32,464 nucleotides of DNA from an uncultured Myxococcales bacterium (GTDB taxonomy: Bacteria; Myxococcota_A; Polyangia; Palsa-1104; JAEUJZ01): assembly GCA_937868485.1 (NCBI GenBank), contig CALMML010000224.1:1-32464 (forward strand), given 5' to 3'. Each line of letters opens with the position of its first letter. Within the stretch, counting starts at the first letter, position 1. Below, in pieces: positions 26,969 through 29,407 of the stretch. Both the position numbers and the translations under genes were made by a program. Below the pieces are notes generated by a model, which saw nothing but the letters and a program-made list of their open reading frames with translations, was not told where the DNA came from and made no database searches.

Positions 26969-29407
26969 GTGAAGCAGCCATATAAGTTGCCCGATTTCTA
27001 TATGCCGTATCCGGCGCGATTGAATCCTCATTTGGAATCGGCGCGCGTTCACTCGAAAGCTTGGGCCTATGAGATGGGAATCTTGGGGTCCAAGAAAGAA
27101 GCGAGAAACTCCGCTGTTTGGGATGAGCGCGACTTCGATGCGCATGACTACGCGCTGCTTTGTGCATATACGCATCCTGATGCGTCGGGCCCAGAGCTGG
27201 ATCTCATCACCGACTGGTATGTGTGGGTGTTCTTTTTCGATGACGACTTCTTGGAGCTGTTTAAGCGCACCAAGGACATGGAAAACGCGCGCGACTACCT
27301 GATTCGGCTGCGTGCGTTTATGCCGATTGATCCGGTCGCGACGCCAGCGGTGCCGAAAAACCCGGTCGAAAAAGCGCTGCAAGATCTGTGGAATCGGACG
27401 ATTCCGACGAAGACTCGCGAGTGGCGGGTTCGCTTTTCGGAAAGCACGCGCAACCTGCTGGAAGAGTGCGTGTGGGAGCTGGCCAACATTCAGGAAGGCC
27501 GCGTCGCCAATCCGATTGAGTACATCGAGATGCGGCGGAAAGTGGGTGGCGCTCCGTGGTCGGCGGATCTGGTCGAGCATGCCGTCGGTGTGGAAGTGCC
27601 GGACCGGGTCGCGGCGCTGCGTCCGATGCGGGTGCTCAAAGACACGTTTTCCGACGGTGTTCACCTGCGCAATGACCTGTTTTCGTATCAGCGAGAGGTC
27701 GAGCAAGAAGGGGAAAATGCCAACTGCGTGCTGGTGTTTCAGAAGTTTCTGAACCTGGATGCGCAGACGGCGGCGAACCTGACCAATGAGGTGCTGACCT
27801 CGCGGCTGCATCAGTTTGAAAACACGGCGCTCGTCGAAGTGCCGCTGATGTGCGTGGAAAACGGGCTGAGCCCGATCGAGAGCCAGAGCGTCGCGCTGTA
27901 CGTCAAAGGACTGCAGGACTGGCAGTCGGGCGGACACGAGTGGCACATGCGCTCGAGCCGCTATATGAAGGTCGAGCCGAGTGAGCCGGGCGTGCTGTCG
28001 GGACTTGGTGTGTCGGCATCGCGAGTGGCTCCGACGGCAAGCAAGCTGGGTGTAGAGCGTCGGCTGCGTAGCTTTTCGCATGTTCCGCATCAGCCCGTCG
28101 GTGACGTCAAGCGTCCCGAGTTTTATCAGCCGTTTTCGGTTCGTTTCAATCCGCTGCTCGAAGCTGCGCGCAAGCACGCGCTTGTGTGGGGCCATCAGGT
28201 CGGGCTCACGAGCAGCGTCGCGGGAATGTGCGTGTGGGACGAGCCAGAGCTTGCTGAGTACGACTTTGCGCTGTGTGCGGCGGCGTGTCAGCCGGATGCC
28301 TCGCAGGTTGGACTGGATCTGACGACGGACTGGTTTTCGTGGGCGACGTTTGCGGATGACTACTTTCCGCTGATTTTTGCGCGAGCGCGGGATCTGGCGG
28401 GCGGCAGGCTGTACGTCGCGGGGCTGGATGCGTTTATGCCGCTTGATTGCGGTGCGACACCGACGCCGCGTGATCCGGTCGAGTGTGGTCTGGCGGATCT
28501 GTGGCATCGCACGGCGGCTCCGATGAAGGCGTCGAAGCGTCCCGCGTTTCGCGCGCTGGTGCAGGGAATGCTTCAGAGCTGGGTGTGGGAGCTTGTCAAC
28601 CACATCGAAAACCGCGTTCCCGATCCGGTCGATTACATCGAGATGCGACGGCAGACGTTCGGCGCAGAGTTTGGCATGAGCCTGGCGCAGTTCGGTCTGG
28701 ATGAGCAGATCCCAGCGGAGCTGTTTCGGACGCGGACGATTCGTGCGCTCGTCAACTCGGCGGCGGATGCGATTGGGCTCATCAACGACATCGTTTCCTA
28801 TCGCAAGGAAATCGAGATCGAAGGAGAGCTGAACAACTGCGTGCTGGTCGTCAAGCAGTTCATGGGCATTGAGTCGCAGCCCGCGATTGAGATTGTGTCG
28901 CAGATCTCAGCGGCGCGGATTCGTCAGTTTGAGTACGTTCGAAAGATGGAGCTGCCGACGCTGATGGAGCAGTTTGAGCTGTCTCCGAAGTCGAAGGAGA
29001 GCCTGCTTTCCTACGTCGAGAGCATTCAGAACTGGATTTCCGGTGTCGCGCACTGGCACTTCGTGGTGCCGCGCTACATCAACCTGCGTGAGCATCCGCA
29101 TCCGACGCGCGGTCAGTCGGTTCCGAGCGTTCCGATGGGACTCGGTTCGGACGGCGCACGCTTTCACAGCAAGCAGTCTGTTCGCGGGCAGGCTGCACCG
29201 CTTGCCGCCAGTACGGACGCGGCTGCGCGCAAGCCAAGCATTCCCAGCTTTTCGGGATCGTTTACGTCCGCCGCGCAGCTTCGCAAAGAACCGAAGCCAA
29301 GCGAGTCTGCTCCAGCCGTTTTGGGGTCCGCTGCACCGGCACTCGGGACGGACGCGCTACGGATCGTCGCGCAGCTTCGCAAAGATCAGGAATCGTTACG
29401 CAAGTAG
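26969..29407 (+). CDS. geoA: Geosmin synthase (germacradienol/geosmin synthase), likely encapsulin cargo
   Basis: The 812-residue protein has two class I terpene cyclase domains. The N-terminal domain (about 1-330) cyclises farnesyl diphosphate to germacradienol; it has DDDFLE at 91-96 (DDHFLE is usual) and NDLFSYQRE at 235-243. The C-terminal domain (about 384-705) turns germacradienol into geosmin; it has DDYFP at 463-467 and NDIVSYRKE at 606-614. The start [18 protein letters not shown] matches geosmin synthases and fixes the GTG at 26969, with GAGG just upstream. Streptomyces enzymes are about 726 residues. The excess here is a Ser/Pro/Ala-rich tail (about 706-812). GLG words recur at 345-347 and 724-726, and AQLRK recurs at 769-773 and 801-805. 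Two shell genes follow after 55 bases. Synthase identity is firm; encapsulation is inferred. Confidence 0.95.

Follow-up and report, generated by a model that had tools for sequence, protein, structure and literature searches.

The long C-terminal tail of a geosmin-synthase-like enzyme encoded in the window (the whole stretch of DNA that was analyzed, 32,464 nt from an uncultured Myxococcales bacterium) is probably an extended segment that loads the enzyme as cargo into a family 2B encapsulin, and worn copies of the GPTGLGTSAAR motif lie along it. Judging from the sequences compared, this motif, with two or three worn copies in the tail, is a likelier candidate for a conserved docking signal than the five-residue word AQLRK, which is also repeated there.

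The synthase and the adjoining shell genes

The candidate cargo (26969..29407, + strand, GTG start, 812 aa) is a geosmin-synthase-like two-domain terpene cyclase. Pfam finds two PF19086 stretches in its single chain, and the germacradienol/geosmin synthase structures PDB 5dw7 and 5dz2 match residues 2-369 (E 6e-144). We also compared the protein with NCBIfam NF041168, the model for family 2 encapsulin terpene cyclase cargo, whose cut-off is 1200 bits. Residues 3-730 aligned over nearly the whole 735-position model, but the score of 1099.4 bits fell below the cut-off. Therefore, we term the enzyme cargo-like and divergent, and not a certified NF041168 member. Its closest relative is a homologue from the same genus (locus L104), with 71% identity. 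In an AlphaFold2 (AF2) model built from a 30-sequence alignment, both cyclase domains were confident.

Two family 2B encapsulin shell genes follow on the same strand. The first, Enc1 (29463..30884, +, 473 aa), starts 56 bases beyond the synthase stop codon, in the same operon. It scored 749 bits against NF041163, has SrpI-like and cNMP-binding domains, and matches PDB 9bix (E 3e-190). The second, Enc2 (30930..32333, +, 467 aa), scored 741 bits against NF041163 and matches PDB 9bhu (E 3.9e-186). Both contain PF19307 and PF00027, that is, an HK97-type shell fold with a cNMP-binding domain, and the closest solved chains are PDB 9bhu, 9bix and 9bje.

Two other features of the window were recorded. 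An XylR_N/V4R/STAS protein is encoded at 9001-10074 (- strand); since its relative in locus L104 (5979-7040) lies directly upstream of the same-genus synthase, the protein may act as a regulator of the synthase pathway. A tandem array with a 72-base period and 5.6 copies occupies 18290-18699 and slightly overlaps the start of an ORF at 17273-18310 (-).

Extent of the C-terminal tail

The last domain residue of the synthase is at about position 706, and 106 residues lie beyond it (707-812; 29087..29404, +). This agrees with the original prediction of a long tail after the second cyclase domain. The tail is predicted to be disordered: the pLDDT was below 50 for residues 710-805 and 807-812, as it was for most of the inter-domain linker (337-368). 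We assembled a comparison set of 80 loci from public genomes and added more synthases, taken from relatives and three actinobacterial samples. The median tail length in other sequences was 37 residues, and tails of at least 100 residues occurred in 10 of 154 sequences, not all of which are distinct. The tail had been described as absent from typical synthases. This is true of only about 70 residues, because the first 30 or so are the counterpart of the normal C-terminus of geosmin synthases. An origin by frameshift artefact was ruled out, because the same-genus homologue has a 126-residue tail that is homologous, in frame and contains matching islands.

Motif copies in the linker and tail

Andreas and Giessen (2021, PMC8346489) reported GPTGLGTSAAR both at the C-terminus and in the linker that joins the two cyclase domains, and suggested that it acts in targeting. 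In our analysis, a motif of this type was found in the linker or tail of all but one of the 143 distinct synthases scored. We then scored the window protein with a position-specific scoring matrix (PSSM) built from 177 instances, from which the window's own genus was excluded. The linker copy (residues 342-355; 27992..28033, +) scored 8.6, a value reached by none of 3000 shuffles, and its G345, L346 and G347 are nearly invariant among 30 synthases. In the tail, the top three sites scored +9.1, +5.1 and +3.3, and the fourth-best scored -9.4; among shuffled tails, the respective frequencies of scores this high were 0.03%, 0.03% and 0.17%. Thus, the linker and the tail both hold matches that are degenerate, with shuffle p-values of 0.002 or less.

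The best tail site, copy 1 (residues 721-734; 29129..29170, +; p 0.0003), has the counterpart GPVGLGSAAAWLNA in the same-genus homologue (PSSM 8.5). Copy 3, the lowest scoring of the three (residues 788-801; 29330..29371, +; p 0.0017), has the counterpart AGLGLGTAALRLAA (PSSM 13.5), so that the homologue retains the first and last tail copies. Copy 2 (residues 760-773; 29246..29287, +; p 0.0003) is only a possible copy and the least secure, and it had no support in the same-genus homologue (shuffle p 0.19). The AF2 model contained short low-confidence helices at residues 348-352, 726-737 and 794-811, which overlap the linker motif, copy 1 and copy 3, respectively.

Two or three clear copies also occur in long tails from Nostoc-type cyanobacteria, Chloroflexi, Enhygromyxa, Actinokineospora and a Pseudonocardiales MAG, and a copy lies at or near the extreme C-terminus in the long tails of L019, L021-L023, L031, L032 and L057. 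As a separate observation, a group of Streptomyces-type synthases (L072, L114 and L117-L120) has lost the tail motif and kept a GTSAADVGALL word in the linker.

These data bear on the possibility that slippage produced the extra part of the tail as neutral, low-complexity sequence, so that only the usual linker motif and the first tail motif work. The tail is 38% identical between the window and the same-genus homologue, and its middle part is only 26% identical, against 83% and 73% for the two cyclase domains; the near-identical 21-nt DNA copy described below also fits neutral growth. However, identity rises to 50% over the last 26 residues, where LGT-AL-R is retained, and unrelated long tails also have a motif copy at or close to their C-terminal end. 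We therefore consider neutral growth rather unlikely.

If the tail is instead a lengthened cargo-loading segment, as we prefer, one motif copy would lie in the linker, one at the site of the normal C-terminus and one at the tail end, possibly with another between them. Each copy probably folds as a short amphipathic helix with an N-cap. Such helices would bind weakly to the inner face of a mixed Enc1/Enc2 shell, so that several copies on a flexible tether would add up to a stronger hold, and geosmin would be made inside the shell.

Co-occurrence of synthase and shell genes

A comparison of tails from synthases with and without neighboring encapsulin genes, in search of AQLRK-like words, had been proposed with the original prediction. 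We divided the 143 distinct synthases into 75 with a nearby shell gene and 68 without one. No synthase other than that of the window contained AQLRK, and the GPTGLGTSAAR-type tail copy was present in 84% of both. The linker motif scored slightly lower in the unlinked synthases (p 0.003, uncorrected for shared ancestry). However, nearly all of the unlinked genomes have a shell gene elsewhere. A family 2B shell gene was found in all 29 synthase genomes of a sample chosen mostly for having no shell gene in the available flanks, and in all 10 of another, mixed sample. In two actinobacterial orders, it was found in 75 of 76 synthase genomes, even where the genes are not adjacent, against eight of 40 genomes of the same orders in which no synthase was detected; these counts ignore shared ancestry, and some synthase genomes can escape the search. 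The actinobacterial shell query also took in one genome without a synthase (G001), which is outside the 76. The only synthase genome in which we detected no shell gene was G665, apart from a contig-edge fragment in G460.

The genus of the window gives a further case. In the same-genus genome G002, the synthase (L104) and the shell pair (L183) are on separate contigs, and another genome of the genus has neither the synthase nor the shell pair. Given that nearly all synthase genomes carry a shell gene somewhere, the comparison of linked and unlinked synthases fits, at the level of gene content, loading at a distance from non-adjacent genes. We also observed that a polyprenyl synthetase gene follows the L183 shell pair, and that a Microcoleus MAG (L009, 6819-11388) has two tandem geosmin-synthase ORFs upstream of two shell genes.

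The same comparison raises the question of whether the GLGTSAAR motif and the tail serve the enzyme itself, through domain packing, dimer contact or stability, and not the shell. The equal frequency of the tail motif with and without an adjacent shell gene would agree with this, as would the retention of the motif in G665, which has no detected shell gene. On the other hand, the motif lies in segments predicted to be disordered, nearly all synthase genomes carry a family 2B shell gene, and PMC8346489 also reports the GPTGLGT word from single-domain 2-MIB-synthase-like cargos. A role confined to the enzyme thus appears quite improbable.

The AQLRK words

AQLRK occurs twice in the tail, at residues 769-773 and 801-805, as had been claimed. 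An exact repeat of at least five residues, of any kind, arose in 325 of 20,000 tail shuffles (1.6%). At the DNA level, both words are spanned by a direct repeat of 21 nt, with copies at 29269..29289 (+; AQLRK at 29273-29287) and 29365..29385 (+; AQLRK at 29369-29383) that are identical at 20 of 21 positions. When codons were shuffled, none of 150 trials exceeded 17/21 identity, and none of 300 protein-preserving permutations of synonymous codons exceeded 19/21. Because this match is beyond what codon choice would be expected to give, AQLRK looks like the product of recent copying of DNA within the gene rather than a selected docking word. A dispersed DNA repeat was ruled out as the source, since the genome holds the exact 21-mer only at the two tail sites.

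We found no AQLRK in the linkers and tails of about 150 other geosmin synthases, which rules it out as a family-wide word. At the corresponding sites, the same-genus homologue reads AIARSG for the first and AQLSQ for the second, so that the word is unconserved even within the genus. The two words also differ in register with respect to the conserved motif: the first ends motif copy 2, and the second runs on from copy 3. The second AQLRK would thus be a continuation of the helix of the last motif copy, and the first, for which the DNA likeness suggests recent local copying, would belong to the least secure one. AQLRK itself is most likely incidental.

It had been suggested that the tail peptides containing AQLRK may dock the enzyme to the shell. 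The more general part of this idea, that a disordered tail helps docking to the adjoining family 2B shells, is plausible and agrees with PMC8346489 and, for family 2A, with PMC8049743; AQLRK as the docking word found no support. That AQLRK is a lineage-specific docking word, repeated to grip either two shell protomers or both shell types, is very improbable: it is a repeated 5-mer with its second copy at the extreme C-terminus and within the low-confidence helix 794-811, but it lacks the conservation and the common register just described, and the DNA repeat is closer than selection on the peptide requires.

Likeness between the cargo motif and the shell N-arm

The conserved segment at the start of family 2B shell proteins, SL(G/S)TAAARNL, resembles the cargo motif GLGTSAARI. 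This likeness is short and was spotted post hoc, while the shells were being aligned to solved structures. When the cargo motif profile was compared with the shell profile by hhalign, a single match was obtained, at the N-arm (P 0.0026, score 18.2), against 11.1 for the best of 30 column-shuffled controls. In Enc1, the matching segment is residues 19-28 (29517..29546, +), and in Enc2, residues 18-27 (30981..31010, +) are the best site for the motif core (score 4.55). For 85 of 99 shell proteins, the best site for the motif fell within residues 1-45, and in a cyanobacterium (L002) the seven residues LGTSAAR are identical between shell and cargo. Shells beside polyprenyl synthetase genes carry the same N-arm word. 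SL(G/A/T)PDAAR was found in a shell beside a class V aminotransferase of the cysteine-desulfurase type and in three similar shells.

The likeness may only reflect two helix-capping sequences. In PMC12407261, a 23-residue N-arm is described as resolved or absent at the two-fold pore, so that the N-arm would be a possible contact point. From these sequence matches one might speculate that the cargo motif imitates the shell N-arm, that at the two-fold pore it would either displace this mobile arm or pair with it, and that long tails offer several such imitations; we regard this as unlikely, if conceivable.

Discussion

The window presents a case that is ordinary in kind and unusual in form: a divergent cargo of the geosmin-synthase type, with an extended tail and worn copies of a known candidate motif. 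Like the geosmin-synthase-like family 2B cargos (PMC8346489, NF041168), the enzyme has two cyclase domains, a disordered linker and C-terminus with motifs in both, and two adjoining shell genes. It differs from them in its tail of 106 residues against about 37, in its worn motifs with two or three tail copies, and in its score below the NF041168 cut-off. The Nostoc-type (L019, L021-L023), Chloroflexi (L031) and Enhygromyxa (L032) synthases share with it a long tail, a motif at or near the C-terminal end and an adjoining shell gene; unlike those in the window, their motif copies are near the consensus (scores 20 to 31), and they contain no AQLRK.

In outline, the system also resembles the cysteine desulfurase cargo of the family 2A shell SrpI (PMC8049743); there, the enzyme is directed to the shell by a long disordered segment that bears short conserved motifs. 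However, in that system the segment is N-terminal, the motifs are different, the shell belongs to family 2A and the enzyme is unrelated. The two-component family 2B shell of Streptomyces lydicus (PMC12407261) likewise has two related shell genes in one operon; the text considered describes no resolved cargo contact.

In the papers considered here, the route by which terpene cyclases enter family 2B shells was only proposed, from a conserved motif, and experiments on the function of the motif later than 2021 may exist. The present case separates a conserved signal from gene-specific noise, and it shows how widely shell-linked synthases differ in the length of the tail and in the number of motif copies. 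It also yields a concrete contact hypothesis, namely imitation of the shell N-arm. If this is true, short GLGTSAAR-type tags could load other enzymes into family 2B shells.
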